64,000 nucleotides of DNA, from the NCBI RefSeq assembly GCF_030463535.1, contig NC_132878.1:90257507-90321506 (forward strand), given 5' to 3'. Source of the stretch: Salminus brasiliensis (lineage: Eukaryota > Chordata > Actinopteri > Characiformes > Bryconidae). Of the stretch, positions 29,565 through 51,897 are shown one piece after another. The notes beneath the pieces are model-generated. The model worked only from the letters and a program-made list of their open reading frames with translations, was not told where the DNA came from and did no database searches. Position numbers and translations under genes: made by a program. Position 1 is the first letter of the stretch, and each line of letters begins with the position of its first letter.

Positions 29565-29619
29565 ATGGACGCAGGTCACCTTGAGACCAGATTGCTCTGG
29601 ACTTCTCTGATCATTTCAG
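29565..29619 (+). CDS. single-V receptor exon 1: signal peptide
   Basis: The ATG at 29565 opens MDAGHLETRLLWTSLIIS. The exon ends tttcag|gtgagatg in phase 1. The hydrophobic core continues into exon 2 (GVLAG). Confidence 0.65.
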
Positions 29620-32600
29620 GTGAGATGAAATCTGTCTTTGTGTTTACACTTCTCTGCCACCTCTTCTACACAGAAAGACAGCAACAGGACTAGTGTAGAA
29701 AAGTAATCTGAGTAGATGTTTACATGCCTTGGACAAAAGTATTGGGACACACATCTTAATCGTCTCTAACGCTCTGCTGACTCTTTAACTGCGGAGCTCC
29801 ACAACTGCTGTAAGAGCTGCCAAGGGGGCGTAACTCCATATTAATGCCTATGGATTTAGAATGTGATCTCAAAAAGGCTCCTGTAGGTGTAATGTGTAGA
29901 TGTCCCAATACTTTTGTCCATATAGTGTGTGTGTAAACAGTGTGAACAAACAGTCTAACACAGGAACACAGCAGAATACAAAAGAGGTAGTCTCAACTGA
30001 CAGCACTTGTTGCAATGAAGTGTTATTTCTATGGTATTTCTCCATAGAACCCTTTTTAGCACTTTAATGTTAAGTAAGTCTACTGGCCCTCTAAACTGAC
30101 AAATCTGCTATCAGAGATATTGATATTACAATGCTCAATTAGCTCCAAATATATTTCTTCATGGAGCTTAATCACCTAAAGCAAGAGGGCCTGCATGTGA
30201 GTTCGGACTTTCTGGGAACTGGGAAAAGTCATGGCCGTATTGCTATATGCAGTTCTTAGTGTTAGGCTATGTTGTATTAGCACCAAGCTAATGGTGTTGT
30301 GGGATCACTTTCCCACAATGAGAATAGATTTAGCTTAAATACAGACATTTAAAGCTCATAACAAGCATCCAGGTAACACTGTTTGCTTTAGATATGCAGT
30401 TTTACAGTGACTCCCTCAGTAAAACACTGAGCCTGAAGCAAGTCTATGAACAGTATTAGAGGAATAAGCCTACCAGTGGCTGTTAGCTCACTATTGATTT
30501 GTAATGTCAGGCAAAGTGACCAAAGCTGCCTAGTTTCCTAATATAAGCTGGTTATCTAACATCAGTGGCCTAAAATTCTGTCATATATATAGTTGCCTAA
30601 CACAAGAATGCATACAAAAACTGTAGAACGTCGACAAGCTCGTTTTTGAGTATTTCCAATGTACTGTTTCCTGCTCCCACCTTCCAAGAACACACATGGT
30701 GGATGAACTGACGATGTTATAATGTCCCCTAGGTGTGAATATTATTTGGTGTGTGTGGAACCCTGCAATGTCCAGTTGGTATTCCTGCCTTGTATTTATG
30801 ATTCCACTGGTAGGCTCTGGACCTACCGTAGCCATGTAGCTGACTTCTCAAACAATGCCATGTCCAAAGAAGCAGACTACAGAGCCCTGCTGATCCCACA
30901 TGAATCAAAACGTTTCTCTCGTTTCCACATCTTACTGGGAATCTCTTCATGTGTGTAGGTGTTCTGGCCGGTGACTGGGTGGTACAAGTTCCAAAGAGTC
31001 CAATCCACGCTCCTCCTGGTTCCTCTGTGACAGTGCAATGCACTTATGACTTCCCTGAGGATTCATCGCAGGGGACGCTTCACAAAGTGCTTTCGGAGAT
31101 GTGGTGTCGGAACCAGAGCTTCTGCATCACGCCAACATACATCTACCACAGCCGTGGAATCTTCACAGACCCTGCGTACCAGGGCAGGGTGCAGTACCTG
31201 GGCACGACTGGGTCCAAAAACTGCTCTTTCAGGATAACAGACCTGAGGACCACTGATAGCGGGGTCTATGTGTTCCGCTTCATTACGGACCACCCAGTGG
31301 AAAAGCTGCCGGGCCAGAAGGGACTCATCCTACAAGTGACACAAGTGGAAGGTACTATTACATTTTAATTACATTTAATTTTTAAAAGGCCACGGTAGCT
31401 AATTAGCAATTAACAGTAGTTACAGCACATACAATCTGCATAGCTAAATGATCACACACTTGCCTCAAACTGAGACTCTCGTCTGAAATTGTTCATTGCT
31501 AACAGACTTGCTTGTGTAGTTACTGACACTACTGCTGTTTCTCTACATTTACATTTACATTTAAGTCATTTAGCAGATGCTCTTCTCCAGAGCGACTTAC
31601 AAAAGTGCTTCACTGTTTCCTCAGAAAATACCCTCAACTAGTTTGTATAGACTAGGATCCCAAAGACACCTCTAAGCTTAAATGCTACTAAATACAAAAG
31701 TCAGTATGGAGACCACAATACTCCACACTACACTTCACCCAAGTGCCCTTGGAAGAGGAGGGTCTTCACTGTGTTTGAAGACAGCGAGTGCCTCCGCTGT
31801 TCGGACACCCAGGAGAAGTTCACTCCACCACTTCAGTGCCAGGACAGAGAAAAGCCTGGACGCTTGTCTTGCGTGGATCTTGAAGGATGGCGGGTCAAGC
31901 CAAGGGCTCTTGGTACTGATTGTCTTTTGACCGTTGACATTAAGTACAGAGGGGTTGGTCCATTCTTAGCTTTGTAGGCCAGCGTCAGGGTTTTGAGTCT
32001 GATGTGGGCAGCAGCTACAGGAAGCCAGTGAAGAGAGAACGCAGCAGAGGAGATGAACATGGCTGAAGACGACCCGTGCCGCTGCTTTCTTTATTAATTG
32101 CAGGGGCCTGATGATATGCAGAGGGAGACCAGCCAGGAGTTCATCTCTATCTGTTACACTAGTAGCATAGGCTCAGTTTCAGTTATTTCAATGACTTCTA
32201 TTACAAGCCAACAAGAAAAACAAGAGTTTTTGATTTTGTGGTAATAAACTGTTTGCTACAGATAGAACTGACAGATATTACACTGGATATCATGGTCTTC
32301 TATGATCACCACAGTGGAAGCAGAAAATATGATTTTGTGAAGGCAGAGAACAGTTGGAATGAAACTAAACTGACTAAACCACACCGAAGTTCATGGCACA
32401 ATCTGTGCTATTTTTACTGCCACATCCTGTCCTTCACACTGTACATCTTCCGCATTTCTGTTAAGAAAGGTTAGGCATTTCCTCAAACAAGCTGGACCAG
32501 CATCCTTCCCTGTTGCAACTGCCTTGTAAGTGAAAATTGTGAAAGATAATATTGTTCAGCGCCTTGGAAATTTCTAACATCTTGCTATTCCTTAAAAGTG

Positions 32601-35451
32601 TACATTCAAATGTTGTTACTGTACCTTAAACACTGATCTACCATAACATTTGTGCGTAATAACGAGTAGGTCTCCCGTGTGCCGCCACAACAGATCTGAC
32701 TATTCGAGGCATGGACTCTGAAGGTGTCCTGTGGTATCTGGCACCAAGAAGTTAGCAGTAGATCCTTTAAGTCCTGTAAGTTGTGAAGTGAGGCCTACAT
32801 GGATCTCATTAATGAGCCTTAGGAGCCATTACCCTGTCACCAGTTCACAGGTCGTCCTTTCTTGGGGCACCTTTAGTAGGTACTGACCACTGCATACAGG
32901 GAGCCTGGAATTATGTCTCATTCCTGTCTGGGCTGAAACATTTCTTTAATAGGCAGGGTAAAACTACTGTAGGCTAATTGCTGGATTTCCGGTTGTGGTC
33001 AGAGGTTAACATACACTGATCATGAAAACCGGGTCAGTATCGGGCTTTCAGTGATTTCTTTGAGCTGAGAATGAGTTACAACATCTACAACGCAACACAG
33101 GGTCAACATGATACATACAGCACATCTACAATTTGGGTAAATGCCTTTAGCAAGTCGCACCTTGACCAGACGCTTTTGGCAGGCATCAACAAGAATGAAG
33201 AATTCTAGTTGGATATTTGACCACTCTTCTTGTGAGAAGAGTGATTTATCCATTTCTCAGCCATTTTAATGTGTGTTTAGGGTCATTGTCCTATTGAAAT
33301 CCAACTGTGTCCATGTCTCAGCCATGTAGGTGATGGTTTGATGTTATGCTGAAGTATTCTGAGGTAGTCCTCCTCATTTATTATCACATCCACATTGTGT
33401 AATGTACCAGTCACAAAAACAGACCCAGAACATGATGCTAACACCACCATGCTTAACAGATGGTACATAGTTACTGGGTTAGGTGCCTCACCTTCACTCC
33501 CCCAAGCATCTTTGTACAACAGCTGCGATCTAGGCTGCTTTATCTATCCCACAGCCATCATTGGTGAGTCTTGGGGTCATCAGCTATTTTTTTCCCTCTG
33601 TGATGAATCAAGGTATATAATCATAAATGTACGCTAAGAATAATTACTGTTTATGTATTGTAGCATGATAGGTTACTAAACACATATAGGCCATCATTAT
33701 TTACACAATAAGGACAAAAGTATTGGGACATCTGTTCGTTCTGTCATTCTTCTGAAATCAAATGCATAAAAAAAAGTTGATCCTGCTTTTGATCACCGCT
33801 CCACCTCATTTCCAACTCCCTAACTCCTAAAAGTATTGGATGGAGCTCCATCATCATTCCAGAGAACACACCTCCACTGCTCCACAGCTATGTATACCCC
33901 TCATGCCCATGTCTGGCATTAGGCAAAAGCAGGTTCATGTTTATCTACTCCATAGAGTCCTATTCTAATGGCAGTACTTCTCTACAAGCTGTTGTGTGTG
34001 TGCATTTGCACATCTATGTCAGCAATGGGTGCAACTTCAAGAGACCAGATGCAGACAACCTTTGAGGAAGTTGTTATTTCATTTTGCCGACATGGAATTG
34101 TGCTGAGCGTTGTGATTCACAGCTTATGCTAAATAGGGGTTTCCTTGCAACACATGATGGCGACACACTTGTGAACTGCTGCTATTCGAGTCTGCTTGTC
34201 CTGCTTACATGTGCATTATGGGAAATAAAAAAGTGAGAAGTGCCAACCTACACTGTGGTGGCTTAGCGGTTAGTGCGTCGGGCTGTGGGTTCGATACCCT
34301 TGAGCAAGGCCATTAACTGTATCTGCTCCCTGGGTACCGCAGTATTGGCTGGGCACGTGTGCTCGCTGTCCACTGCGTGTGTTTGCTCACTAGTGTGTAT
34401 GTGTGTGTTCACTGCTCGGATGGGTTAAAGGAGAGCCAAATTCCATTTCTAAAAAAAAAAAAAGTCTGAAGCATTTTGAAAACAAGTCCTGTGGACTGAT
34501 GAAGGTAAAATAGAAGTTCTTGGCCACGACTAGTCAATATGTTTGTATAGGAAAGAGTGCAGAATGTTGTGAAAAGCATATCTATCCAGCTGTTAAGCAT
34601 GAGGGTATACTGTCCCATGGCAAAGGGAACAGAACTGGATTCAGTTAACCCCTTAACACCCCAAGGCTTATTACACACAAAAGTGTATTACTCAGTAGCT
34701 ACAGAGACTTCACTATAAACTGGTGGGGATATTCTTTGCCAATAGACGTTTGGCCCCAGTGGTGCTACCACCACCATGCTTAACAGTTGTTACATAGTTA
34801 CTTGGGTTAGACGTCTCACCTTTACTCCCCAAAGCATCCTTGCACAACAGCTGTGATCTAAGCTTTATAATATTCAATGAAAAGCGATATTCAGCTTTTG
34901 ACAACAAAAGGTAAGAGCATGTTCTGTGGCTTTATGCGGGTCCTATGGGATCAGCAGTGGGCTGAGATAGTAGATCAGGACAAAATAAAAAGGCTAAATG
35001 TTGGTGGGACTATTCGTTGGTAATAGAAGTTTGTAATAACACTTAATGGGCGAAAATCTCCGAAAGAAAATCTGAAAGACTCTTTAAGGCTCTAAAAACA
35101 ATGACTAAGAAATGACCATGCTTTTCTTTTTCAGTATTGTATTGAAATATGTACCCCCCTCATGTGTATGCACTGTGTATTAACTGGAGAAATCTCTGTG
35201 TTGCAGATGGTAGCTGTGTCTCTGTTATCGGCATTGTGTTTGGAGTTGTCCTCACGCTGATAGCAATAGCCATTATTGCTGTTTGTGTCAGAAGGTGAGG
35301 AAGTGTGTTAATCCAGCTTGCTGAAGCCTTTTCTTTAACACAGTTTAAAGTGTAAAACTAAAGATATAAATTTGTCTTGGCTGATTGACTACATACGAAT
35401 TTAGGGGAAAAATGTGTACGCTTGATTTTTCACCTGAGCTATTGCTTTCAG

Positions 35452-35544
<93 letters not shown>

Positions 35545-35623
35545 AAAACATGAACACTTACTCTGATGTTTTTATTTCAGACGTACACGATCAAGATCAC
35601 TACGGACAGGTAGCACCCTCTGA
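29565..35623 (+). CDS. small Siglec/CD22-like receptor: one V-set Ig domain, one membrane segment, short basic tail
   Basis: Four exons (29565-29619, 30959-31351, 35207-35294, 35581-35623) give 579 bp, a 192-residue protein in one continuous frame. Signal peptide: about residues 1-23. V domain: about 24-149. The canonical cysteines are C46 (B strand) and C107 (E strand), and an extra pair is C68/C74. The LTTTD-type stretch before the F strand reads RTTDSGVY. R125 in YVFRF sits where Siglecs keep the arginine that binds sialic acid. The G-strand tryptophan present in the neighbour's V domain (GRW) is replaced (EKL). N70 and N106 are possible N-glycosylation sites. Membrane segment: about 154-177, without charged residues. 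Tail: RRRTRSRSLRTGSTL, no tyrosine. It converges on the larger CD22-like gene at 38540-51897. Probable role: a glycan-binding surface receptor or decoy of leukocytes (family inference). No C2 domain exon was found in the 3.9-kb intron before the membrane exon. Confidence 0.75.
30959..31351 (+). CDS. single-V receptor exon 2: V-set Ig domain
   Basis: The acceptor is catgtgtgtag and the donor gtacta; 393 bp, phase 1 to 1, as usual for Ig exons. It encodes DWVVQVPKSP, VQCTYDFPED, RVQYLGTTG and YVFRFITDHP. FRFITD and RVQYLG are hallmarks of fish CD22/Siglec-like V domains. Confidence 0.92.
31545..32090 (-). mobile_element. L2-type LINE 3' end, antisense, in the single-V receptor intron
   Basis: It starts at the reversed tail (tttacatttacatttaagtc, agagcgacttac). 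It then holds decayed ORF2 DNA equivalent to the coding end seen in sense at 44480. Confidence 0.8.
32625..33000 (-). mobile_element. Tc1-like transposon remnant, antisense
   Basis: The end resembles a Tc1 terminal repeat (actgatctaccataacattt). It is followed by antisense transposase-end DNA (ggcatggactctgaaggtgt, gtaagttgtgaag). The internal part is deleted. Confidence 0.65.
33100..33530 (-). mobile_element. Tc1/mariner-type remnant, antisense
   Basis: catgatgctaacaccaccat and catgcttaacagatggtaca are antisense forms of the Tc1 transposase region encoding HGGG-type blocks. A similar fragment is at 34735-34870. Confidence 0.6.
33705..34075 (+). mobile_element. non-autonomous DNA transposon (F1)
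   Basis: It opens ggacaaaagtattgggacat and shares attccagagaacac, ctccactgctccacag and gtctggcattaggc with the 46317-46786 copy. Confidence 0.75.
34250..34450 (+). mobile_element. tRNA-derived SINE
   Basis: The A-box-like ggtggcttagcggttagt is followed by the B box gggttcgataccc. Then come a gagcaaggcc block and an A-rich end. Confidence 0.7.
34470..34880. mobile_element. two Tc1/mariner-type fragments
   Basis: 34470-34640 reads in sense (cctgtggactgatgaaggta). 34735-34870 reads antisense (gtgctaccaccaccatgctt). Both are broken and non-coding. Confidence 0.55.
35207..35294 (+). CDS. single-V receptor exon 3: membrane segment
   Basis: The acceptor is ctgtgttgcag and the donor gtgagg; 88 bp, phase 1 to 2. 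It encodes DGSCVSVIGIVFGVV followed by LTLIAIAIIAVCVR, a 24-residue hydrophobic helix with an arginine stop-transfer. The phase pattern equals that of the neighbour's membrane exon. Confidence 0.85.
35454..35539 (+). repeat. poly(A) followed by (AT)n, just before a 3' splice site
   Basis: About 32 A residues run into about 27 AT units. They end 41 bp before exon 4 of the single-V receptor. The layout is that of a retroposon A-tail that seeded a microsatellite. Confidence 0.95.
35581..35623 (+). CDS. single-V receptor exon 4: basic tail and stop
   Basis: After acceptor tttatttcag, the phase-2 frame gives RTRSRSLRTGSTL and a TGA at 35621. A different frame of the same exon stays open much longer and contains YGQV and PVYS tyrosine motifs. 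A weak donor (gtagca) at 35610 could also end the exon early, so the tail is the least certain part of the model. Confidence 0.55.
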
Positions 35624-35913
35624 GAGCTGCCCAGTGTACAGCAGGTCATCAAATGAATGCATTAATGACCCAAATTGTAAAGAAAGTCTTAGTTACATTT
35701 GTACCTTCCATCTCAAGACATACCTCTTTAACCCTCTTCACTTTTTTATCAACATTTAACTTTTAAAATGACAAGCAATCCTGTTTTTAATGCTGAATTC
35801 TTATTTATTTACTCTAACCAGTTGTGTTTAATGTGACATTATTAGGCTGGCTCATAGTTGGCCACATATGCTATGTACTGGGAGCTCTACAATGCACTGC
35901 AAATGAAGAAAAT

Positions 35914-35923
35914 AATAAATAAA
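35914..35923 (+). other. polyadenylation signals of the single-V receptor
   Basis: Overlapping AATAAA hexamers lie about 290 bp after the stop codon, and another lies at about 35926. Confidence 0.45.
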
Positions 35924-36094
35924 CAAATAAAAATATATTTTTTAACATAAGACATTGGTTTAAAGTGAAGCTTACCTTGTTGAGTATAATGCATGCTTTT
36001 TGTGATGGGAGAGCTTCTGCTGGTTGTAGTGGTTTAGGTACCACACAATATGAGTGCTTCTTAAGTGCTCAGTGAGACTTATAGTGGGAGCGGA

Positions 36095-36370
36095 GTCCTG
36101 AGTGGCACAACTGTCTAAGTGTTGGCCCTACTGTTAGGAGACAGCACTCTGTAATGAATATTAATTAACCATAAATAGTAATTAACAGCCAAAGGGCACA
36201 ATTGGCCTCTGTCTTCTCTCTCTCCCAATTACTGTGCATGGTCTGCTACAATAACGTGCTACAATAACGTTAGCGGCAGCTTAAAAAGATGTGTTGCTGC
36301 TTTTTGTGACATGGAAGGAAGCACATGGTAGCCTTCATCCTCCCAGCTTGGGACAGCAAGTGAGAGAACT
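36095..36370 (+). mobile_element. tRNA-derived SINE-like element
   Basis: The A-box-like gagtggcacaactgtctaag is followed by a degenerate middle and gggcacaattggcctctg, shared with 21785-22130. Confidence 0.55.
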
Positions 36371-36379
36371 AGAGGGATA

Positions 36380-37750: not shown

Positions 37751-37755
37751 AAATA

Positions 37756-38308
37756 AAAAAAAACACATTTACAAGCTGTGAAACACTTTTACCAGCCCAA
37801 AACATTTTTACTAACGGTCGAAACACTTTACAAACAGTGAATCAGACCAAAGGGAAGGTCTGGGTACAATACGCAGGAAGAGCTGCTGGACAGTGGTGGG
37901 CTATTGATAACAGGGTTGTGGGTTCGATTCCCAGGCTTGGCAAGCGTTGGGCTGTTGGGCCCTTGAGCAAGGCCCTTTACCCTCTCTGCTCCCTGGGTGC
38001 TGGAGTTGGCTGCCCATTGCTCTGGGTGTTGTGTGTACTCACTGCCCCTAGTTCACTAGTGTGTGTGTGTGTGTTCACTACCACAGATGGGTTAAATGCA
38101 GAGGATACATTTTGCTGTACATTTTGCCCCCCCCCCCCCCCCCCCCCATCTCCATTCACTTCTTTCAACATCAAGCTTCCGTCAGCAGCACTTCCTGTGT
38201 ATTGTACCCAACCTTTCAGTCTGATTCGCCATTTGTAAAAGTGTTTCGGCCATTTGTGAAAATGTTTCGGGCCGGTAAAAGTCTTTTAATTTTTGTAAAT
38301 GTGTTTTT
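37756..38308. mobile_element. MITE with about 90-bp terminal inverted repeats, split by a SINE
   Basis: The left arm 37756-37847 and right arm 38219-38308 are imperfect complements: acacatttaca with gtaaatgtgt, aaaacattttta with tgaaaatgtttc, and gaatcagac with gtctgattc. The tRNA-derived SINE at 37875-38147 sits between them. The element lies between the convergent 3' ends of the two receptor genes. Confidence 0.75.
37875..38147 (+). mobile_element. tRNA-derived SINE nested in a MITE
   Basis: The B box is gtgggttcgattcccagg. Then come gggcccttgagcaaggccc, a ctgctccctgggtgc block, a (GT)n tract, gggttaaatgcagaggatac and a terminal poly(C) run (about 38126-38147). Confidence 0.75.
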
Positions 38309-38430
38309 CACTACCCCCTCCACTGTAAGTATGCCTTATTTTACATCACATTTTAATTGTAAAACCACATTGGCATAGTTTGTTGTGCTTGGACTTTACA
38401 GTGTTTCCTTTGGAGGTCTCATATATCTGA

Positions 38431-38436
38431 TTTATT
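38431..38436 (-). other. polyadenylation signal of the CD22-like gene
   Basis: TTTATT on the plus strand reads AATAAA on the minus strand, about 105 bp past the CD22-like stop codon. Confidence 0.5.
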
Positions 38437-38539: not shown

Positions 38540-38639
38540 TCATGGCTGTTTGGCCAATACAGTGTAAACGACACTGGACCCCTCTTTAGGCTCTTTTGTG
38601 CCATCCAGTGGTACCTTTGTGATTTGCGCCTGGTCGAGA
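38540..38639 (-). CDS. CD22-like exon 10: second ITIM and stop
   Basis: 100 bp of coding sequence after acceptor cttccacag. It encodes [13 protein letters not shown] and [14 protein letters not shown], then TGA (38542-38540). VVYTVL is a canonical ITIM close to the C-terminus, as in CD33-type Siglecs. Confidence 0.92.
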
Positions 38640-41600
38640 CTGTGGAAGAACAAAAACCACACATAAATACTGCATAGGAAGGCTAATAATGAATGACAGC
38701 TAGAGGAATTCTAGCTACTATTATGTAAGCAAATCTTTATTATCTAAGTACTTTTACTATGGCATTTTATGCCCGGCTAAAAAATTCAGCTCAAGACCCG
38801 CTTTTGCTGGGAACTGGTTTTGGAGGGTCTAACCTATTTTTTGATTGTAAGGTGGTTATCAGATTTTGACCAGCATGGTGTATACTGTATTTGATTTTGG
38901 TTATGCTGGTCAACCAGCTTGATGGTGCTGGACATGCTGGTCGACCAAGCAAGGCCACCAGTATGACCAGCATGACCAAGCAAGATGACCATGGGGTCAT
39001 CTTGCTTGGTCATGCTGGTCATACTGGTGGCCTTGCTTGGTCATTCTGGCGGTATAGCTTGGTCAGGTTGATCATGATTGTAGACCAGCTAAACCATTAA
39101 ACTCAAATGAAAACGATACCCTATGCTGCCCAAGGACCAAACTGGTCAACCAGCTTAACCAATCTGACCAGTCTTGGCTGTTTTTTTCAGCTAATATTAT
39201 TGTCATTAGCTGCAGTACGGTAAAAGAATTCATACTGGAGCCATAAAAAATAAGACTCTAACCTGGGCATGCGAGAGTAATGCACGGTGACGTACTTGAC
39301 TCTCCCATCGTTCCCATCTCCATCAGTTTTCCCAGTGGCTTCCTTAAGGGGAACGATAGCAGGGTGAACGCTCTCATACACATCTTCTGGTTCTTCCTGT
39401 CACAAACACAAAGCCCAAATACCTTATAACTGGCTTGATCTGATTTTTTTTAAGAACCGATTAATTAACTACTAGTTAAAGATATTGTTCTCATTAGCGC
39501 TCATAGACAAATAGACCACTAATGCTGTGTTGTCACTAATGCGCATGTTGGATATAATTAAAGAAATTTCATATATTGTAATATATCTGAAATCTATACA
39601 GCAATCAGCCATAACAGCACCACTGACAGGTGAAGTGAAAAACATTGGCTTCTACATCTTCATCTACAGTGGCTTCCACTGTCAGTGGGAGGGATATATT
39701 AGGCAGCAAGTGAACAGTCCATTCTTAAGGGTGCAAGCATAAGAATCAGAGCCACTTGTGGCAGATTGTGATTGGCTAGATGACCGGGTCAGAATATCTT
39801 CAGAACATCAGACAGGTCTTGTGGGTCTTTTTCTTGTATGCAGTGCAAAGTGCTTCAAGGAAGGGCAACCTCTGAACCAGCAACAGGGTGATGGGCACGT
39901 AAGGTTCTGCTGCTAACGTCATGGTGCAAGATACGACAGGATACCTTCAGAGGTCTCATGGAGTCCATGCATCGAATGGTCAGATCAGTTGTGCTGATCA
40001 CTGTATATTGCCATATATCAGAATTCTGTATGGGACATTTTGGCCAATGTAGCCTTAAGTGGCATTCGGGAGAAATCGTACACATAGGATTAAATCTTAT
40101 CAAGTTTAGAATATTGTTGACCCAAAACCAAAATAATCTCAGTTATTTAATTAAATAGACCCAGGGTTTGGGATTTAACATGATGCTGACTACAAAATGA
40201 AGCTTGACTTCACAGAGGTCTCTTGCTTTGTCATCATCTTTGGATGCTAAAATGCTTCCCTGTTTGGAAGGATCAGGAAAATGCATTGAAATGAATTATC
40301 AAATGTTAAACTGCTTATCTGAATGGAAACGTTCCACATTACGCACTGGGATGTCTGCCATCTTTGTCTTCCTGAGCTCAAATGTTTGTTGGGGGCATTC
40401 ATAAAATAGTGTGTCCACTTCCATGGGGGAACCCAGCTGTGTTAATAATCAAACACACAATTGTTCAGTTAACAGAACATCATATTTACTCAACATTAGT
40501 ACCAATCTCACTAAGACATTTATTTTCTAATATAGTTTGGTAATTTTTTTAAACCTCTCTTTAGCTCCAAGAATATGAAAACATACAGTTAAATATGTAA
40601 ATAGACTCTGTTCTGTTTAACATTAAGGGACAGGTTAAAGTACTGTAGGCTATACCGGTGCTCAAACGTCAATGTTTTCATGGTTGTGACATCAAAATGG
40701 GCTATTTTTTGCGCTTAGCCTCCATATATTATACATATGGGATGTACTTAAAGGCTTAAAGGTGAACTGTAACTGTTTAACACTTTAAAAAAAACATAAA
40801 ATAGGATTTAAATGATATTATCCCTTTACATTCATAATAATACATATGAATAAAGTTAGTGGAAAGACCTGCTTGTCCTCGTCTAGTGCTTCCATGTCCA
40901 CCCGGTGCATATTCTTACTGCAGGACAAATACAGCCTGTTAGCTTTCAGCTCCAGCATAAACATGGCTTAAATGCATCCATATAAGGATTAGACCTCAGT
41001 CACCTGATCATGATGGCCACAGTCAGCGTGATGAGCCCGACTGACACACCCACTGCAGAGGCCAGCGCAATCACCTTCAGACGACCTGCCAATCAAACAC
41101 ACGATATCTTTTTGTTTAGTTGTTATATTGAGAGAAAATTAGAAGAGGAGCATAATCAAATTAAGGGCGCATCGACTTAGTCGACTAAAATTGACGACCA
41201 AGTTGTCAACTAATTTAATAGCCGATTAGCTGGTGGCATCAACACACATGTTTCTTACGCTAACTAGGAACGGTTTAGGATTCACATGAGCACATGAGTA
41301 TCAATAAGACTGAGAGCTAAAATGACTAAAGTGATGAAATAACAGTTGTTCTTTATTGCTGATCCGAAAAATGATGGGAAAACGGACATTTGCAGTCTAC
41401 AGTGTGTCCAATAGCTGGTGTGTAAGTTGAAATATCCAAGCCAACCCAGTGACCAGCCATTGGTTGATATATGAATGGGAGTTCTTGTAATGCTCATCAT
41501 GGTGTCTGTTTACGCATAAAGTCCCGTCCTTCAACAAAAAGAGCCAATCAGCTTTCTGGTTATGCTTAGTTACAAGAGAAGGGTTGATGTGGATCCGGAC

Positions 41601-44600
41601 AATCCATGTGAAAAACTAATAAAAAAGTATCAATAACACAAAATACCTTCAGACTGAGAGCTAAAATGAAGTGATGAAATAAGCGTTGTTCTTATTTGCT
41701 GATCCGAAAAAATGATGGGAAAACAGTCTATCAGACATTTGCAGTGTACAGTGTGTCCAATAGCAGTGTATAACATTTCAATCTATATAATCACAATACT
41801 AATTCATATGATGCAGACATATAGGCTTGCTCAGTCCCGGATAATTCAAATCCCTGACTGTTTTTTGTCAAAAATTGTCAAAAATAAACAAGAAATGCAA
41901 CAAAAGCTTCTTTAGTTTTGTTCAAACCAGATACATTTCATATGGGTTCCCGGGGTAATTCTTTCTTTCACAGAGGCTCATCTGTCAACGCTATTCCCGT
42001 TCAGATCGACCATGTCTATGTTTTTCCCCATTATCCTCTAAGAAAATTGCAGGCTGAATTACCTCCTGTTTTTCACTGAACTCATGGAGTTCGAACGATT
42101 GGAATAGGCCTTTTAAACACTGCTACAGAACAGAGGTGGGCACCTCCAGTCCTGTAAGGCTGGATTCCTGCACAGTTTTGTGCTTTTCCTGCTCAGACAA
42201 TTGCTTGGTTAAGTTAAGCTTTAGGTTTAGTAGGTCTGTTATAGCAGGAAAATCAGCAAACTGTGCTGGACTCTGGCCCCTGTTGCCCATTGCTGCTATA
42301 GAAGATCCAGTTTTGGCTCCATAAAGAACCATATTTATAATAAGGAGGACCTTTACAAATTGGTGAAGAATCTAGAGACATTTAATAGGTAGTTCAACTC
42401 AAACATGGTTCTTAATGAGGCCAAAAGTACAACATCTTGTATGGCATTACTTAAAGAAGCTGGTGATATGAGCAGCTCACAGTGTTACTGAGAGACTAAA
42501 CAAAAATGAAAGTTTGAGAGAAGAGGAAGTGGAAAAATGTGAAATTAGAAAAGAGGATTGAAGAGAAAGCGGAATGATGGTTACGGCCGAGGACGTGGGT
42601 ATGTGAAACATGTGATGTGGCTGTGAAAGCTTTTTTCCCTCCTTTAGGCCAAAGAGAATCAGGCTAACAAAATTATTTGCAGTCGGAACAGCTGACTGTA
42701 GGTTGGGAAACGCAATCACATGAAATGTCTTACACAACGGAAGCAGACTGACTGCAGGAGAATCAGTTCTGCACACTGGTTATTATTTATCAGTGAAGGA
42801 ACTGTTTTATAACCCTCTGAACGACTGTATAAATACACCAGAATATTGCAAAAAACGTGAAATCAGTTTCTGTAAGCTTGAGCATCTGTGAAAGGTCATA
42901 TTAGAAGAGTGCAGCTGTTTATCCTAGTGCATCCATCTGGAGGTGGTGATTCAACTGCAGCTATTTTGTAATTACAGTAGAATACAAAGCACTGGTCTCC
43001 AACCCTGCTCCTGGAGATCGACCTTGCTGCAGACCTTATCTCCAACCCTATTTGAATCCACCTGGTCCCTCTAATTACTGCCTAAGAAGTGGTTGATTAA
43101 CTGAACAGACTGTTAGATGTGAGTTGGAGGTGAAGTCTACAGGATGGTGGATCTCTTTAGGAGCATTGCTGCAATAAAGCCTGATCTTAGTTGTTAGCCA
43201 CCATTTTGTCTATATTCCACTATTGAGTGAATAGTTCCTTTCATTTCAGTGTATCTATAAATGTTATTCTGACCTATACCAAAATATATAACCTAATGAA
43301 ATATCCTTTAGCCTGAAGCATTTCCTTAGAACCTGAGCTTAAATGATTATGTTGAAATGTGAGATTTCAAGATGCATTTAATTATTTCCTTACAGCAGCA
43401 TTGTGGGCTGTTACAGTACAATTGCAGTATTTTACACAAATGTGACTTGAGTTATGCGTCATTACAGAGATCTGGCGAGAGGTCTTGATTAAGAATTGTA
43501 ATTAAAATGATTCATTGTGAAATCTGAGATTTCCTGATGCACTGAAATGAAGAGCTATAACTGCATTCAACCAAATTCTACTGAAATTTGAGATTTCATG
43601 ATTCATAAAACTGTTTTTGTTTGAAACTTTGGATCTAAACAAATTAATTAAGAACTGTAATGAAATTGCATCATTGTGAAATCTGAGATTTCCTAATGCA
43701 CTGAAATGTTTCCTAAAGAGCTGCAACTGCATTCAACCAAATTCTGCTGAAATTTGAGATTTATAATACGTTAAACTGTTATTGAATTGAAAAAAAATCA
43801 GTACTAATTTGGACATTTCACAATTTACTGAATCATTTCATGAACTGAAACTGAATCACCAAAACTGATTAATATCAGTTAATATGAATATCAATTCATA
43901 TTAAATAGTGTAATAGAGAACTATCATAAAATTGGAGATTTTGTGGTAGTTAAACTCGTTTCTTTAGAACTGTAAGTAGAGATTTCATGATGCACTGAAT
44001 TACTTTCTAAATTATACTCAAATTTTACATTTCATCCTACACTAAGCCACTGAATAAGTACTTTACTTCAATTAAAATGAATTATGTTGAAATGTGAGAT
44101 TTCAACATAAGAGCTGTAACTGCATTCAACCAAATTCTGCTGAAATTTGTGAGATTTATAATACGTTAAACTGTTATTGAATTGAAAAAAAAATCAGTAC
44201 TAATTTGGACATTTCACAATTTACTGAATCGTTTCAATCACAGAAACTGATCTGTAGTAAAATCTAAGGTTTCATTTTACAGCTTTACAGAGAACTGTTA
44301 TAAAATTGGAGATTTTGTGGAGCTTAAACTTGTTTCTTAAGAACTGTAATCAAATCAAACTGAACTGGAGTCAATCCGTAGTGATATTTCATGATGCACT
44401 CAATCACTTTCTTCTATATTATACTGTAATTGAATCAAACTACTTAAAAATACCAAATTCCATGTTAAAGTAATATTTCCGATCCGCACCAAGAGCCCTT
44501 CGAGCTTCAAGTACAGCTCGGCTCGACCCGCCATCCCTCAAAATCTACAAAATACAAGCGTCCAGGCTTTTTTCTGTCCTGGCACCAAAGTGGTGGAACG

Positions 44601-47600
44601 AGCTGCCCCTGGGTGTCCGAACAGCCGAGTCGCTCGCTGTCTTCAAACGCAGACTGAAGACCCACATCTTCCGAGAGTACTTGGACGATTAGAGTACTAT
44701 GGTCGCCTTATTGTATTGTGTTTAGCAATGTCTAAGCTTAGAGGTATCTTTTGAATTATTAGTCTATTCTAACTAGCTAAGGCTTTTCTTGGGTAAATAG
44801 CACAGCACTTTGTAAGTCGCTCTGGATAAGAGCGTCTGCTAAATGCCGTAAATGTAAATGTAAATGTAAATTTCCATAAACTTGGGTTGCACGATGTAAC
44901 ACAGTTCTGGTGAGAGGTTTTGTGCAGCTCCACCAAAGTTACTTCAGTAGCAGCAGGTCCCTCCTGGAGTGGCAATGACAGAGAATCTAGTCTAGTCTAG
45001 TCCCATTAGAGAAGTATTGCCAATAGAATAGGACTCTCTGGATCAGATAAACATGAACCTATTGGCACCATGCTGCCTAATGCCAGGAGTGGGCTGGAGG
45101 GGTATAAAGCCCCCCAGCATTGAGCTGTGGAGCAGTGGATGAACTGTGTTCTCTGGAATGAAGGATGGTGCTCCATCCTACACATTTGGGATGAGTTGGG
45201 TAGTTGGGGATGAGGTGCGGTGGTGATCATCCACCATCCTGACCTCACTAATTGAAAGATGATGGGTGGTGCTCCATCCTACACATTTGGGATAAGTTAG
45301 GGAGTTGGAGATGAGGTGCTGACTTCACAGAGATGCTGTTCTCTCAGTTGAGCACCAACATGTTTCTGAATCTGCTATTTTAAGATAAAAAACACTACAT
45401 AATGTTGTTTCATGAATTGTAATTGAATTGAATCATGGTTGAATCAAACGTTAATGGAATCATTGTGAGATTTACACACCACCTGTATTCCTTTGTTTAC
45501 AGTTAAGAAAGAGCTAAAGGCTTAATTTCTAACCTCAAGACAATTTCCACCTCCTTCTTTCAGCGTTCTTACAAATCAAGGGGTAAATAGGCACCTAGGA
45601 TAAAACACATGTGAATCTGTTTTAGAAGCCCACTTTGAAGCCCACCGACCTCTAACCCGGACAGTCAGGACAGGAGAGCTGTGCACGCCGATGCGGTTGT
45701 GGGCCTGGCAGTAGTACTGGCCGCTGGCCCCAGAGCTGACCTCAGCGATGGTGTAGCTGGGGCCTGATCGGGTTTCCCAGGCGTCAGCCGCATTGATCCG
45801 GTGCCAGGTGTAGTTCTCCACGGCCGGGTTAGCCTGGCTGCTGCAGGTCAGGGTCAGCGAAGCGCCCGCCTCGATCACACTAGAGGGCCGAGCCAAAACC
45901 GAGGTGTTCTTAGGGGCGTCTGAAAGGCAGGGAGAGAGAGGAACAGCAGAGAAAGAGAGGAATAGACAGAAAGGGGGGGGGGGGGGGGTAAGAGAGAGAG
46001 AATGATTGATTAGCTTTTCAAGGGCTAATGAAGGCAGGCAGGAGGTGAAGCTTCATTTCACAGTGAGAAACCTGAGCAGATTTGATGAGAATGACATTCC
46101 TACTTCAGCCCAGCGCCACATTAAAGACTACATAGCATGTGATAGCATGCGAACATATCCTGTATAGAAGCCCAATTCTTATATGTTATTGTCAAGTTAA
46201 AAGCAGTAGCCAAAAATATTACTTACACAATACATGTTTTGTGTAAGCTATATCCTGTGGTAAACAATCACTCATCTGAATTGTGAGGTCATGGACTAAA
46301 CAAAAGTATAAGCTACACACATTATATAGACAAAAGTATTGGGACACCTGCTCAGTCACTGTTTCTTCTGAAATCAATTCATCCTATCTCTACTGTGCAT
46401 TAGGTAGAAGCATTAGTGGAGCATTAGTGAGGTCAGGATGGTGGATGATCACCACCACAACTCATCTCCAACTCCCCAACTCATCCCAAATGTGTAGGAT
46501 GGAGCACCATCCTTAATTCCAGAGAACACAGTTCATCCACTGCTCCACAGCTCAATGCTGGGGGGCTTTATACCCCTCTAGCCCACGCCTGGCATTAGGC
46601 AGCATGGTGCCAATAGGTTCATGTTTATCTGCTCCAGAGAGTTCTATTTTATTGGCAATACTTCTCTAATGGGAATAGACTAGAGTTTGTGGATTCCTAC
46701 ATCTGTGTTAGCAATGAGTGCAATGTAAAATAGCAGAATGCATTCATTAGAAGGGGTGTCCACAAATATTTGGACATGTAGTGTGCATATAGTAATGCTA
46801 CATGCAACATGCAAGCTAACATAATTACATAGAAGTAATTCTCAAACTGTAATCTACACTGTTAAAAGTATGACTTCCTTGAGGAACATTTGGTGGGTCC
46901 TCTTAAAAAACAATGAATAAACAAGTGTCCCAAAACATTTGTCCATTTAGTGTACCTTTCCCTATCATTAAGCCCAAGGACCGCTCAGCATGAGGGAGGA
47001 CTTACACAGAACAGAGAGCGTGGCAGAGGGGGACGTCCCTATACCAAATGCATTCCATGCCGTGCAGTAGTACTGTCCACTGTGGTGTGAGCGCACACTG
47101 GAGAGGGTGAGGTTCTGGGACGAGCCTCTGGCCCAGGGCTGACCCCCACCAACCTTGTACCAGGCATATTTCTCTACTGGCGGGTTGGCGTTGCTGACGC
47201 AGGTCAGATTGACCGAATAGCCCTCCATGATGTCACCTTTGGGGCTAATCAGGACCTTTGTGTTCTTGGGAGAGTCTAAGTGGAGAAACACAAATGTGAG
47301 ATATATAGCTTCAGTCTGCAACATGGATTGTACCTGTAGCTACTGGCAATACAGCTCTTGTGCTTTGCGATCTCTGCACAAATGTCCTGGACTTTGGACT
47401 TTCAGTAGAATGTCTGACAGCTTCTGTTGCTTGGTGTGACCAAGAACCACTTACATTGAGAGGAAGGGGCCATTTGACTAATAGGCAAAACGACCAGCCT
47501 ATTCGGTCAGCCATGGCCCTAGGTGCCCATGACCCTGTCACGGTTTTACTGGTTATCCTTTATTGGACCACTTTTGGTAGGTACTGACCACTGCATAACA

Positions 47601-50600
47601 GAAAAAACCCACAAGACCTGCCTGATGTTTTGGAGATGTTCTGACCCCTTTGACTAGCCGTCAAAATCTGTGTCTCAAAGTGTCTCAGATCCTTATCCTT
47701 GTCCATTTCCCTCTTTTTAACACCTGTATCATCTTCAAAACAGTTCACCTGCTGCCTAATACACTCCACCCTTTGACAAATGAAAAATAATCCATGCTAT
47801 TTACTTCACCTGTCAGTGGTACTAATGCTATGGCTGATCGGTGTACATCATTTGGCAGAGACTCTTATCCAGAGTGCCTTACATTAGAATCATGTTCCAC
47901 AGGTTAAGAGTCTCGCCCAATGACTCTTATGGTTTAGGACTGTGTGCTTACCCAGCCAGGAAATTTTTACACATGACCTCGGATAAAGCCAGTCAAAAAA
48001 TCATATGCTACTGAGATAATGCATGTTAACCCATTAACACTCCAAGGCTTATTACACATTAAGGTGGATTACTTAGTAACTACAGGGACATCTGTACAAA
48101 CTGGGGGGCTATTCTGTGGGTAATAGAAGTTTGAAGTAACACTTTCGGCCTGGCGGGCCATAGGTGTTTCATGGGGTTGATGACTGAAGCTCAGTGCTAA
48201 AATGGATACATTACATCTAAAAAAAAAACTAAACTAAAATACCTTAGAATAAGCTATGGATGAGCTCCGGATGAGCTCCGGATTCCAAAAACAGATCTAG
48301 AAGCACTCTTTGTTAAAATACTGCAGATACAGCTTCGGAAACACACACTTCCCTGATTCTTTCTAAATTTGTCAGATTGAACTTTAGCCTTGTGGTACTA
48401 ACATAGAGATCTGTGCCAGTGTGACATGATGTTCTGCCAAAAATAACAATATTACACAAGAACCGATAAGCAGATGTAATGACAGACACCAACTCAGCAA
48501 GCTCAAACTAGCCAGATGAAAGAATATCGCTCATCTGGGTGTGAAGAGTTAAGATGTCTAGGTCATGTGAACCCAAAAATACCTTTGGAAAGACATTACT
48601 GAGCGTTCTGTCACCAGATTTACATTTACAGCAAATACTTCTCTAAAGACCACGAGCATGCCCAACATCAGCTGGCTGCTAAATTTCGTCATTAGCATCT
48701 GCATGATTTCTTTTATGTAATTCAGTAGAACCTCTGATACAGTGCTGTATGTACCTCAGTTAAATTGACATTTACTGTATAAGTCTGCAGCTGTAATAAG
48801 CTGTAATAAGTCATGTTAAAGAAATGCTTAGAAATTACAGAAAGTAAATTACAAGTAACGTTGACCAGAACTGGATGGGACCGGTCCGTGCCGAGGGAGT
48901 TGCGGGCCACGCAAAAGTACTCCCCATGGTCTCTGTAGTCCAGAGTCCAGAGCCTGAGCTCGGGTTTGAAGCTGTCCGGCACGCTGCCACTTTCACCCTC
49001 CTTAAACCAGGCAAAGCTCTCCACGGCTGGGGCTCCCTCACTGCTGCAGGTCAGGGTCACCGAGTCACCCTCTGACATGGCCCCTCTGGGACTGACTTGT
49101 ACTGTGGTGTGACGTGGAGCATCTGAAAGAGATCGGTTAGGCCGGATACTTATCAGACAGTACTGAATCTGAAGAGATTGTACTGCTCATATTAGTACAG
49201 GACGAACCAGTCAGCGTGATGCAGTTATGGTTATGGTATAAGTATGGCATAAGGCAGCATGGTGCCAACAGGCTTGTGTTTATCTGCTTCAGAGAGTGCC
49301 ATTTTATTGGCAGTACTAGACAAGCTGTGTGTATGTGTGCATTTACATTGTATTAGCGAACTTAAAGAAACTCAATGCATCAATTAAAAGGAGTGTCCAC
49401 AAACATTTGGACATATAGTGTATGCCACATGTAGTTCAAATATTATTATTATTATTATTATTGTTATTATTATTATTATGACATATATATTGTATATGTA
49501 AAATAATTTTGAATCTGTATATTGCCATACATCAGAATCTGTATGCGAAGTTATGAGGCATATGTAGCTAGCAAGTAATTGAAGCTGATGTACCAACAAT
49601 TAGTATCAACAGTACAGACAAACTTCAAGTTTGCTACCAGTGTTTTAGCTATTAGACATGCGTTTGTCCATTTTTAAAGATTACAGTGTGTCATACAGTG
49701 TCAGAAACCACAATAGCAAGTCTATTTCCATTCCTTGTTATGTAAATTAGCCTTGTAGCTCCAGTGTAAAGCTTTCCCCACACCACAATGTAGCTGATGG
49801 ACCACATCTGTGGTATGAGGAAAGTGTGACTAGTGTTGTCCTACTCACATCCCACAGTCAGGGTGATGCCTGGGGACTGGACATTCTGAGGGGGTATTGG
49901 CCTGCAATAGTAGGTACCAGCATGCTGGCTGTTGAAGTTGTAGATGGTCGACACCTTGTCTGCGTATCCTAAGTTGACCCCATTCCGATAGAGGGCAAAG
50001 TTCCTGCCAGCAGCTGCACAGCCTCGAGCTACACAGCTAAGAAACACGGTCTCTCCTGACGCAAACATGTTCCCAATTCGTGCTGGATGCACTTGTACCT
50101 GGAGTTCTGTAACCAATACAAGTCACACAAAGCACTACTCACAACTGGTACATAGGAGCTATCACATCTATAAGACCATAGCTCAGAAATCAGATGTGTA
50201 AGCCACTGTCAAAGTCATGGTTTTCCATCACTGTGATCATTAAAAAGATAAATGGTGTTTAATTAATTCAAGAATTTCTGGACATTAAGGTTTATCAGGG
50301 CAAAAGGTTCTAATGATTCGTGTAAAATGTACTGTACCCGTTACTGATAGAGAAATAGAGTCCGGTGAGGTCCACCTGCCCTGCTGATGGTCCGTCTCGA
50401 ACCTGAAATGGTACTGGCCATCATCGCTCAGCTTGACGTTGGTGATCTGCAGACTGCATCTCTTGTAGCCCCCCATGTACCTGATCCTGTCTCTGTAGGA
50501 TGGGCTCACCAGGTTAGTGTCTGTGTGGTAGGCTAGGTCCCGTCTGCCCTCTGCTGTGATGTGGAACCACATCACCTGCTTGGCAGTATAGGGCGACGGG

Positions 50601-51897
50601 TAGTCATAGCGGCAGGGCAGCGTTACTGTGGTCCCGGCCCAGACGCATATGTCTGTCCTGGAGAAACTTACCACCCACTTGCTGCTACATGACCCTGGAA
50701 AAAGAAACAGGAAAAACTAGCAGCTAGTGGTGAAGCTAATGTTGGTTTAGCGTCTTAGTAGGGGTGCACACTTATGTTAAATTCTGTTGCTAGATTTGCT
50801 TATTTTTTTTACTCCTGGAGAAGCTGATAACCCTCTTACGGCCAAATGGGCCTGAATTATATTAATGTGAATATGAATGAATCATATGAATCACAACAAT
50901 CTAGTGGCTAGTTAGTTTAGCCCCTCAGTATGGGCGTGCATCTCTTACCTCAAGTCCATTATAAATTAATTTTAGTGACATTATAACATCAATTACAATT
51001 ATCTTTTCATTATTTTTCATTTCTGCATAAACTTACCATGACCAAATTAGCCTGAATCACAAAAAAGCTATCGCCTCAGTAATGATGCATATATCAAACC
51101 TCAATTCAATGATATAATACTTTAGTAAAAGATTCAAAACTTTATGAAATCTCATATTTCACCACAATTTAATTTCATAAAATCACCACTCATTTCCCAT
51201 CACATCAGCCTGAATCACAAAGAAGATTTTGGCCAGCAGTGCAGCTAATAATAACTAGTGACTAGATAGGGGTGCATATTTCAAACCCCACAATGATTTA
51301 ATGACACAATCCGAAAAAGGAACTTTTACAACGCTTTGTGAAATCTCACATTTTACTACAATTTAATTCTTTTTCAGCATTGTTTAATTTCTGGAGAAAC
51401 CACGCACTTCTTAACTTTCCCATGAGCCTGAAAATGCTAAAACTAGCTACTACCATGAGCTATGTTGCCCCCTTAAATCACAATGATTTTATGTGTTGGT
51501 GCAAAAATAGTGTATTGTGGCCAGTGGAGGAATACAGACAATGAAAAAGAAGATTTTAGAGACATATACATTGAAAAACATGCCTTATTTCAAATAACAT
51601 TATAGTAATCCATTATAATAATCTGAAACTCAGTGCATTTAAATGGGTAATTGCCATTGTGAAGCCAAAGGACAAAGCAAAGAACAAAATAATCTGATCA
51701 ATGCTATATAAATAACATGCCTTACAATTGCAAGGGCAACCAGGTAACTGTACACTTAAGAGCAGCACAAGGTAACCGGCTCAGTGCACGCTACACTGAA
51801 ACCTGCATGATGCCCAGTGTTACACATAAACACAAAACAACGACCCACCTGGTAGAGCGATGTAGATTACAGTCAACACAGTTGCAGATGCCCACAT
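38540..51897 (-). CDS. CD22/Siglec-like inhibitory receptor (V + four C2 domains, two ITIMs), complete
   Basis: Ten exons sum to 1839 bp, a 612-residue type I membrane protein in one unbroken frame. Signal peptide: about 1-17. V domain: 18-135, with C44/C96, an extra C33, and R114 in YHFRFETD at the Siglec sialic-acid arginine position, plus W23 and W124 as aromatic partners. C2 domains: 136-221, 222-311, 312-401 and 402-491, each with a C...W...YxC pattern. The three last domains come from exons of exactly 270 bp. Membrane segment: about 494-518. The tail has Y570 in VKYVTV and Y605 in VVYTVL; both fit the ITIM consensus (S/I/V/L)xYxx(I/V/L) that recruits SHP-1/SHP-2. Y542 (DVYESV) is a weaker tyrosine site. 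Every Ig exon is phase 1 to 1, as in the Siglec family. The expected role is a sialic-acid-binding inhibitory receptor of B or myeloid cells. MAG also has five Ig domains and maps near HPN in human, but the ITIM tail favours CD22/CD33-type Siglecs. It is the convergent neighbour of the single-V receptor. Confidence 0.9.
38776..39192. mobile_element. palindromic MITE with a perfect 48-bp hairpin core, in the last CD22-like intron
   Basis: The ends are inverted repeats of about 22 bp: ggctaaaaaattcagctcaa at the left, and a right end whose complement reads gctgaaaaaaacagccaag. The core 38943-38990 is the exact complement of 38995-39042, with loop atgg. Flanks are rich in gctggtc/gaccagc motifs. 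Confidence 0.85.
39263..39396 (-). CDS. CD22-like exon 9: first ITIM
   Basis: 134 bp, acceptor tttgtgacag, donor gttaga. It encodes [17 protein letters not shown], a charged linker and [19 protein letters not shown] is an ITIM; YESV is a further tyrosine site. Confidence 0.92.
39598..40012 (+). mobile_element. Tc1-like transposon, internally deleted
   Basis: The terminal-repeat-like end gcaatcagccataacagcac is followed by tatattaggcagcaagtgaa. The far side keeps transposase-end DNA (gaggtctcatggagtccatg). It lies in the intron between CD22-like exons 8 and 9. Confidence 0.75.
40869..40917 (-). CDS. CD22-like exon 8: proximal cytoplasmic tail
   Basis: 49 bp, acceptor tcctgcag, donor gtcttt (non-ideal). 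It encodes [17 protein letters not shown]. Phases fit both neighbours. Confidence 0.75.
41004..41085 (-). CDS. CD22-like exon 7: membrane segment
   Basis: 82 bp, acceptor tgattggcag, donor gtgact, phase 1 to 2. It encodes [14 protein letters not shown] followed by [13 protein letters not shown]. Confidence 0.88.
41090..43320. other. CD22-like intron between membrane and domain-5 exons, first part: no exon seen
   Basis: A diverged direct repeat occurs (agctaaaatga...gatccgaaaaatgatgggaa at about 41318-41375 and again at 41660-41720). No Ig-type or other coding block was recognised. Confidence 0.5.
43320..44440. repeat. degenerate long-period repeat
   Basis: The blocks tgcattcaaccaaattctgc and gaaatttgagatttcatgat recur at about 43560-43600, 43725-43770 and 44115-44165. 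Related sequence is seen again near 45410-45470. The array is old and has no coding content. Confidence 0.65.
44480..44873 (+). mobile_element. L2-type LINE 3' end with ORF2 C-terminus
   Basis: An open stretch encodes a C-terminal block, [19 protein letters not shown] and [16 protein letters not shown], then a stop. This is typical of L2/CR1-clade ORF2 ends. The 3' UTR ends ctaaatgccg(taaatg)n. It is the best preserved copy of the tail also used by the S3 SINEs in this window. Confidence 0.88.
44880..45410. mobile_element. mixed MITE copies (families F2 and F1)
   Basis: 44880-45000 and 45330-45410 match F2 (gagaggttttgtgcagctcc, tctgctattttaagat). They flank an antisense F1 fragment at 45000-45320 (ccccagcattgagctgtgga). 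Confidence 0.6.
45650..45919 (-). CDS. CD22-like exon 6: C2 domain 5
   Basis: 270 bp, acceptor gcctttcag, donor gtcggt (weak). It encodes [34 protein letters not shown] and [13 protein letters not shown]. It is more GC-rich than its surroundings. Confidence 0.93.
45975..45989 (+). repeat. poly(G) tract
   Basis: An uninterrupted G run of about 15 lies just upstream (intron side) of the exon 6 acceptor of the CD22-like gene. Confidence 0.9.
46317..46786 (+). mobile_element. non-autonomous DNA transposon, near-complete reference copy (F1)
   Basis: The ends form imperfect inverted repeats: cacattatatagacaaaag at the left, and acaaatatttggacatgtag at the right before tgtg. The middle holds the shared blocks ggtcaggatggtggatgatc, ctcaatgctggggggcttta and ctctagcccacgcctggcat. 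There is no coding capacity. Partial copies elsewhere in the window come from the same family. Confidence 0.85.
47006..47275 (-). CDS. CD22-like exon 5: C2 domain 4
   Basis: 270 bp, acceptor ctccacttag, donor gtaagt. It encodes [34 protein letters not shown] and [13 protein letters not shown]. Confidence 0.94.
47440..47970 (-). mobile_element. Tc1-like remnant followed by an S3 SINE fragment, antisense
   Basis: 47500-47835 is an antisense Tc1-like copy (ccaaaagtggtccaat complement, ending ggctgatcggtgta). 47845-47970 carries the L2-type tail (cttatccagagtgccttac) of family S3. Confidence 0.65.
48853..49122 (-). CDS. CD22-like exon 4: C2 domain 3
   Basis: 270 bp, acceptor ctctttcag, donor gtaatt. 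It encodes [34 protein letters not shown] and [13 protein letters not shown], a typical Siglec C2 domain. Confidence 0.93.
49250..49425 (+). mobile_element. F1 element, 3' fragment
   Basis: It shares gcagcatggtgccaacagg and ends gtccacaaacatttggacat atagtgta. Confidence 0.7.
49437..49480 (+). repeat. (TTA)n microsatellite
   Basis: An att trinucleotide run with one ttg interruption. Confidence 0.95.
49849..50106 (-). CDS. CD22-like exon 3: Ig domain 2
   Basis: 258 bp, acceptor ggttacag, donor gtgagt. It encodes [25 protein letters not shown] and [11 protein letters not shown]. The second cysteine in ARGC is placed like the Siglec domain 1-2 bridging cysteine, a plausible partner of C33. This domain lacks the usual core tryptophan (ALYRNG). 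Confidence 0.9.
50338..50694 (-). CDS. CD22-like exon 2: V-set domain
   Basis: 357 bp, acceptor tttttccag, donor gtacag. It encodes [32 protein letters not shown] and [14 protein letters not shown]. The FRFETD arginine is the Siglec sialic-acid contact position (family knowledge). Confidence 0.95.
50740..51540. repeat. diverged tandem/dispersed repeat, units of about 200 bp
   Basis: The set cctcagtaggggtgca, a caatgatt...acacaatac block, a tttctggagaaa block and agcctgaatcac recurs at about 50755, 50925, 51075 and 51270. It appears again at 53430-53580 and 53825-53945. It lies in intron 1 of the CD22-like gene and upstream of it. Confidence 0.65.
51849..51897 (-). CDS. CD22-like exon 1: signal peptide
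   Basis: The ATG at 51897 starts [16 protein letters not shown]. The donor gtgggt follows in phase 1. The short hydrophobic core fits a signal peptide. Confidence 0.8.

Follow-up and report, generated by a model that had tools for sequence, protein, structure and literature searches.

In this work we have analysed a window of 64,000 nucleotides from the genome of the fish Salminus brasiliensis (C1:90,257,507-90,321,506, within a 1.07 Gb assembly), in which two predicted genes for Siglec-like receptors, a short and a long one, lie tail to tail. Our results suggest that the short gene, as read from its predicted exons, is probably a reduced form of a known kind of receptor, the Siglec type. It occupies 29565-35623 of the + strand in four exons of phases 0-1, 1-1, 1-2 and 2-stop, and its translated model, of 192 amino acids, consists of one V domain, an uncharged membrane helix and a tyrosine-free tail. 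We propose that the product would be a reduced Siglec-type surface protein, acting as a non-signalling adhesion lectin or as a competitor of relatives that bear immunoreceptor tyrosine-based inhibitory motifs (ITIMs), and we give this proposal about an even chance of being right. Since the short gene lacks both a C2 domain and the aromatic residue of strand G, we file it as Siglec-derived and not as a full Siglec.

The family assignment comes from the V exons, which lie at 30959..31351 (+ strand, phase 1-1) in the short gene and at 50338..50694 (- strand) in the long gene. Both V domains exceed the curated cut-off (27 bits) of the Pfam profile PF24518 Ig_CD22, which describes the first Ig domain of CD22, the short one with 50.5 bits and the long one with 41.4 bits. 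In the PDB the best matches of the short V domain are MAG (7e-8), sialoadhesin and Siglec-5, that of the long V domain is sialoadhesin (1.6e-10), and in the hit list of a joint profile of the two Siglecs come first, pIgR stands amid the CD33 rows, and JAML, Siglec-15 and PD-L1 follow further down. The two exons also detect each other (tblastn, 67 bits, E 8.6e-17) and are 34% identical. The YxFRF arginine region that an earlier note on this DNA had seen in both genes is present as YVFRF and YHFRF, and in a nine-row alignment the F-strand Arg 125 of the short V domain is matched by an arginine in all eight other rows. This arginine is required for sialic acid recognition in Siglec V domains, according to PMC10122656. 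Besides Arg 125 the short V domain keeps the N-terminal Trp 25; the corresponding residues kept in the long V domain are Trp 23 and Arg 114, and Trp 124 is present there too. The cysteine pair that runs from strand B to strand E is a hallmark of the Siglec V domain; Cys 46 and Cys 107 of the short V domain align, in sequence only, with the B/E-strand cysteines of sialoadhesin, MAG, CD22, CD33 and Siglec-5. Its glycosylation site N106 aligns with N101, a glycosylation site of human CD22 (PMC7226832, section 3.3.1). As judged from these profiles and alignments, both V domains are of the Siglec/CD22 type.

The trees point the same way. A nine-row tree, made first, grouped human CD22, the long V domain and the short V domain at 80/87. 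Two larger trees followed, both unrooted and with long-branch warnings, for which 30 distinct V rows from the same genome were available besides the two window genes: one of 39 rows, which left out the window copies L001 and L004, and one of 36 rows, which also omitted PILR alpha, Siglec-15, L035 and the columns of the cysteine loop. In these, both window V domains group with human CD22 and the CD22-like genes of their own genome (94/88 and 94/91, respectively, unstarred), on a side that excludes sialoadhesin, MAG, CD33 and Siglec-5. The phylogeny thus places both V domains with human CD22, and the position outside the Siglec group that the earlier note had considered for the short one is not what was found.

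Both gene models were rebuilt from the genomic sequence as predicted exons, by phase and splice signals, and AG and GT are present at the inner exon ends of both genes. In the short gene, exon 1 (29565..29619, +, phase 0-1) carries the start codon and the signal peptide; the V exon is followed by exon 3 (35207..35294, +, phase 1-2), which encodes Cys 153, the sole cysteine of the stalk, and the membrane helix, and by exon 4 (35581..35623, +), with a visible acceptor, which translates into a basic, tyrosine-free tail ending in -GSTL and a stop codon. An A run and then a long TA repeat lie at window positions 35450-35540, shortly 5' of this last exon. Poly(A) signals stand 291 bp past the stop codon of the short gene (three AATAAA, 35914..35931, +) and about 100 bp past that of the long gene. 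The small membrane and tail exons were placed by phase and splice signals, the former with the help of hydropathy scans. A strict splice scan of 31.36-38.5 kb gave three phase-1 candidates for the membrane exon, one of them hydrophobic, with a filter that is harsh, because it would reject seven of the long gene's nine donors. In a relaxed scan three places qualified and 35207-35294 was much the best, with a hydropathy of 3.19 against 1.81-1.89, and a donor of 7.3 against 0.4 or less, at the other two places. Its membrane segment, VSVIGIVFGVVLTLIAIAIIAVCV, has zero charged residues, and no basic residue for an adaptor is found inside the helix. The last tyrosine of the protein is residue 122 of 192; no tyrosine lies beyond it, and the short protein contains no ITIM.

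A receptor of this kind might nevertheless signal with the help of a partner, either an associated chain or a scaffold, which it could engage by its C-terminal -STL or by an acylated Cys 176, for example. The GSTL end, of which the last three residues presumably fit a class I PDZ ligand, would suit such a partner-dependent receptor, as would the lone stalk Cys 153 and also Cys 176, which is placed at the inner membrane edge and adjoins an arginine run. However, the helix offers no charge to adaptors of the DAP10/DAP12 type, and by our estimate a few per cent of proteins would end in S/T-x-hydrophobic through chance alone. We regard signalling through a partner as rather improbable.

The searches for a further Ig domain agree with a single-domain protein. 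No C2 domain was found near the short V domain with a three-sequence profile made from C2 domains of the long gene, nor with a profile of 30 C2 domains from the same genome; Pfam detected no Ig domain in any of the six + strand frames of 60 amino acids or more in the short gene intron; and that intron holds no open, Ig-size exon of phase 1-1, even with relaxed splice scores. A pattern scan for Ig exons recovered only one known C2 exon and was not counted. Elsewhere in the genome, a C2 domain lies beside the V domain in 20 of 21 stretches (L021-L041, selected from 98 other genome matches to the short V domain, L041 being an extension of L021), the exception, L035, not being Siglec-like; 17 of L021-L040, and L041, were detected by profile and two more, L034 and L038, by Pfam. 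In other Siglecs a cysteine bridge joins V and C2, as described in PMC10122656. In the alignment the short V domain has neither the usual V-to-C2 cysteine nor the one that the long gene has at a different place, and a true single-domain protein therefore fits better than a cut gene model.

A cut model would mean that the real transcript has more exons (C2, ITIM or another tail) and encodes an ordinary CD22-like receptor. In its favour are a weak donor behind the short V exon (-0.6) and an internal GT in the tail exon (0.5), but the donor of the long gene's V exon is equally weak (-1.3). The 30-sequence profile is imperfect: in L034 and L038 it overlooked real C2 domains that are visible in the frame lists and are recognised by Pfam; yet Pfam, which detects these two, detects none in the six intron frames. 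From 31.35 to 41 kb the + strand holds 28 ITIM-like strings, four of which stand in frames with a pyrimidine-rich acceptor; all four, however, lie before the last exon, and none is downstream of the tail exon. One of the four (...LSWLIDYIRI) follows the membrane exon in the right phase and has an acceptor at 35344, but an exon starting from it would need a 49-base intron, and IDYIRI departs from the ITIM rule used here, [I/V/L/S]xYxx[L/V]. Additional exons are thus improbable in our view. Profiles, Pfam, exon scan and translation agree with the earlier note, which had described a short gene with no C2 domain, an uncharged helix and a tyrosine-free tail; the exon-phase plan that it gave to both genes (V exon 1-1, membrane exon 1-2) reappeared in the rebuilt models, as did the two ITIMs of the long gene, and the distance of about 2.9 kb that it reported between the stop codons of the tail-to-tail genes was measured at 2,916 bp.

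The short V domain belongs to a large family. A genome search with it, at E 0.001 or better, gave at least 100 matches, itself and the long V domain included and 98 others besides, a count that is a lower bound as 150 of 185 candidates were scored. Internal stops occur in two of the 100. The matches cluster on C1 (96.58-96.73 Mb, 11 rows), on C15, on C29 and elsewhere, and most of the others that were read are CD22-like, with L032, which groups with MAG, and L035, of non-Siglec type, as exceptions; the nearest relatives of the long V domain are known only through the loci retrieved in this search. The best-scoring other match among those listed is 39% identical to the short V domain, so that there is no recent copy of the short gene among these matches.

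Between strands C and C' the short V domain has two extra cysteines (WCRNQSFC). A NILT/CD300-type origin was considered for them and rejected, on account of the CD22 profile and of the B/E-strand cysteines. The same extra pair is common to all five rows of the C1:96.6 Mb cluster, 6.3 Mb away, that the tree held (out of the cluster's 11 matches), and is absent from all 25 other rows of this genome. A union of the short V domain with this cluster, with the cysteine-loop columns removed, is compatible with the data (AU, approximately unbiased test, p 0.41). Two loci of the cluster, L022 and L040, have a V exon, then one C2 domain, then an uncharged membrane exon of phase 1-2, and in frames further on VMYASV and VIYSAV, these blocks being 87% identical between the two. 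Another frame common to both, at about 6206-6445 of L022, resembles, we presume, a Tc1-type transposase. On these comparisons the short gene is probably a reduced relative of genes with the V, C2 and ITIM plan.

Reduction could also be decay. The terminal branch of the short V domain is long, at about one change per column, and there is no close copy in the genome; the gene has no C2 domain, no ITIM and no G-strand aromatic, and the 3.9 kb intron behind its V exon contains dispersed repeats. All this would suit a dying gene, a CD22-like locus stripped of its C2 and ITIM exons and drifting, whose product is functionless. Against such a fate, the frame is intact over four exons with all splice dinucleotides in place, a clear in-phase membrane exon and poly(A) signals are present, and the cysteines, the tryptophan, the arginine and the glycosylation site N106 have been kept. 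We consider a dying gene unlikely, though a reading to be kept in view.

The earlier note had seen in the two genes a lineage-specific pair that shares its ligand. Such a paired or decoy receptor would be an inverted duplicate of the long gene, and for this speak the tail-to-tail neighbourhood, the same exon phases, the 34% identity, the fact that each V exon is the other's only significant match (no third one was found by tblastn within the window) and the joint group with human CD22 in the nine-row tree. However, the short and long V domains are sisters in 0% of 200 bootstrap trees of the 39-row set and in 18% in the nine-row tree; a forced pair gave AU p 0.10 with the 36-row data and is not rejected. 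The DNA common to both loci consists of repeats with 73-79% identity (31544-31904 with 44517-44868; 33790-34034 with copies at 45007-45229 and 46446-46723), the first of which we take to be similar to the 3' end of a LINE (long interspersed nuclear element). A recent duplication, recognisable by shared intron DNA, was considered and rejected, because these stretches look like dispersed repeats and are found in both orientations. With 98 other V matches in the genome, and with two genes that are no sisters in the free trees, a private pair is not supported. The two genes are linked, but they are 34% identical, they are not sisters in the larger trees and the short gene has no activating signal; the different residue at the place of the G-strand aromatic is a further difference. 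A true paired or decoy receptor appears very improbable to us.

That residue bears on ligand binding. The aromatic of strand G is a contact residue in Siglecs, and at the position of Trp 124 of the long V domain, at equal spacing after the arginine, the short V domain has Leu 135. Ligand sharing by the two genes is accordingly doubtful, as the long V domain has the arginine and the G-strand tryptophan, and the short one has the arginine but a leucine. The essential arginine is kept in 26 of the 30 other V rows of this genome and the aromatic in 27, which indicates that losses of either occur in this family. The fish CD22 that has been studied conserves the arginine but has hardly any of the other contact residues known from the human protein (PMC7226832, section 3.3.1).

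We propose that the reduction of the short gene would comprise the loss of the C2 domains, of the V-to-C2 cysteine, of the ITIM exons and of the G-strand aromatic, with a second cysteine pair present in the V domain. The protein would be at the cell surface, as a lectin or former lectin and perhaps as a dimer via the stalk Cys 153, and might use Arg 125 and Trp 25 to bind, weakly or with a changed specificity, a putative sialylated or related ligand; it would itself pass no signal, and would add adhesion or lower the access of ITIM-bearing relatives to the ligand. Several observations weigh against this proposal. The missing G-strand aromatic, present in those 27 rows and in all seven comparator rows that cover the site (the long V domain included; the MAG row stops earlier), means that the short V domain may not bind sialic acid. 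The short V domain and the C1:96.6 Mb cluster are united in only 6% of bootstrap trees with the cysteine-loop columns removed, and in the first gene of L021, also of this cluster, C2 pieces are present and no membrane exon was found. Finally, AlphaFold gave a mean pLDDT (predicted local distance difference test) of 42 on the two window V domains and its model was not used, so that the second disulfide and the binding site are read from the letters alone. An extended form of the proposal, in which the second V disulfide would replace the V-to-C2 bridge, and a disulfide-linked dimer would serve as a dedicated competitor that sets a threshold for the large CD22-like family, in which the members that were read have ITIM-bearing frames, is speculative, and we give it little credence.

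The long gene (- strand, 51897..38540) has ten exons and a predicted product of 612 amino acids, with a signal peptide (51849..51897), the V domain, four C2 domains (49849..50106, with one extra cysteine; 48853..49122; 47006..47275; 45650..45919), a membrane exon (41004..41085), a first cytoplasmic exon (40869..40917), a tail exon with the ITIM VKYVTV (39263..39396) and a last exon with the ITIM VVYTVL and the stop codon (38540..38639), all on the - strand. The V exon and the C2 exons are of phase 1-1 and the membrane exon of phase 1-2. This is the inhibitory CD22-like Siglec plan, V and C2 repeats with ITIMs in the tail, and its predicted structure makes the gene an ordinary inhibitory Siglec of the CD22-like, ITIM-bearing kind. 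It adjoins a DNase II gene (window 59592-62404, +), two frames of which match PF03265 (E 1.8e-7 and 2.1e-23).

Several of the other loci are worth recording. At C1:89.99 Mb, about 0.27 Mb from the window, L023 is CD22-like, with a V domain in which Ser replaces the essential Arg, two C2 domains and a membrane exon; LTYAEL and VVYSSV occur in its frames. Ser stands for this arginine also in a V domain of the CD22-like locus L036 (YHFSF; C6:10.13 Mb). L029 (C29:3.71 Mb) has two V domains with Gln for the arginine (YRFQF) and Val for the G-strand aromatic, and to judge from these residues its CD22-like genes may have left sialic acid. On C29, L027 and L028 show a second, weak V-like frame (23.5 and 22.3 bits), which has no B/E-strand cysteines, beside a good V domain.

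How does the short gene compare with known receptors? Four Siglecs are regularly present in a survey of fish (PMC7226832), whereas this one genome holds many CD22-type V domains, with at least 100 matches to the short V domain, not all of them CD22-like. No account of a single-V fish Siglec was found, by title or start of abstract, among the papers listed in a search that left most subscription journals outside. If our proposal is true, the short gene shows an inhibitory lectin family giving rise to a non-signalling member that has kept the sialic-acid arginine, and its single small domain would make the decoy idea testable. With the fish CD22-like (Siglec-2) group the short gene shares the PF24518 V domain, the B/E cysteines, the F-strand arginine and the exon phases; the plan of this group is complete in the long gene, but the short one, unlike the ITIM-bearing members, has no C2 domain and no ITIM. 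Siglec-1 (sialoadhesin), the V domain of which is among the best PDB matches, carries many C2 domains, whereas a single V domain is all that the short gene has. Siglec-1 likewise "contains no regulatory domains" (PMC7226832, section 3.3), and it is a precedent for a Siglec that has no regulatory motif; the statement of the earlier note that the short gene fits neither standard type, activating or inhibitory, is true, but such an arrangement is not without example. Siglec-15, too, carries a second pair of cysteines in the stretch from strand B to strand E, but at other columns, and it has an F-strand cysteine and no E-strand cysteine. A C2 domain is a further feature of Siglec-15 that is not found in the short gene. 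Siglec-15 also differs by a membrane Lys that serves DAP10/12 (PMC7226832, section 3.3.2). PILR alpha resembles the short protein in its one V domain and its F-strand arginine, but has no B/E-strand cysteines, has an F-strand cysteine and is 24% identical to the short V domain (3wuz alignment). The PILR architecture is that of a single V domain, in mammalian single-V receptors of Siglec type that belong to a different branch. The PILR family is related to Siglecs, and PILR beta pairs with DAP12, according to PMC3313972. The NILT and NITR receptors of fish likewise have just one or two Ig domains. In salmon NILTs these domains contain CX3C, CX6C or CX7C motifs (PMC3022915), and NILTs bear ITAMs (immunoreceptor tyrosine-based activation motifs) or ITIMs; ITIMs are found in most NITRs, and a charged residue in the membrane segment in a few of them (PMC2442602). 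The short V domain, unlike theirs, matches the CD22 profile and the structures of Siglecs.

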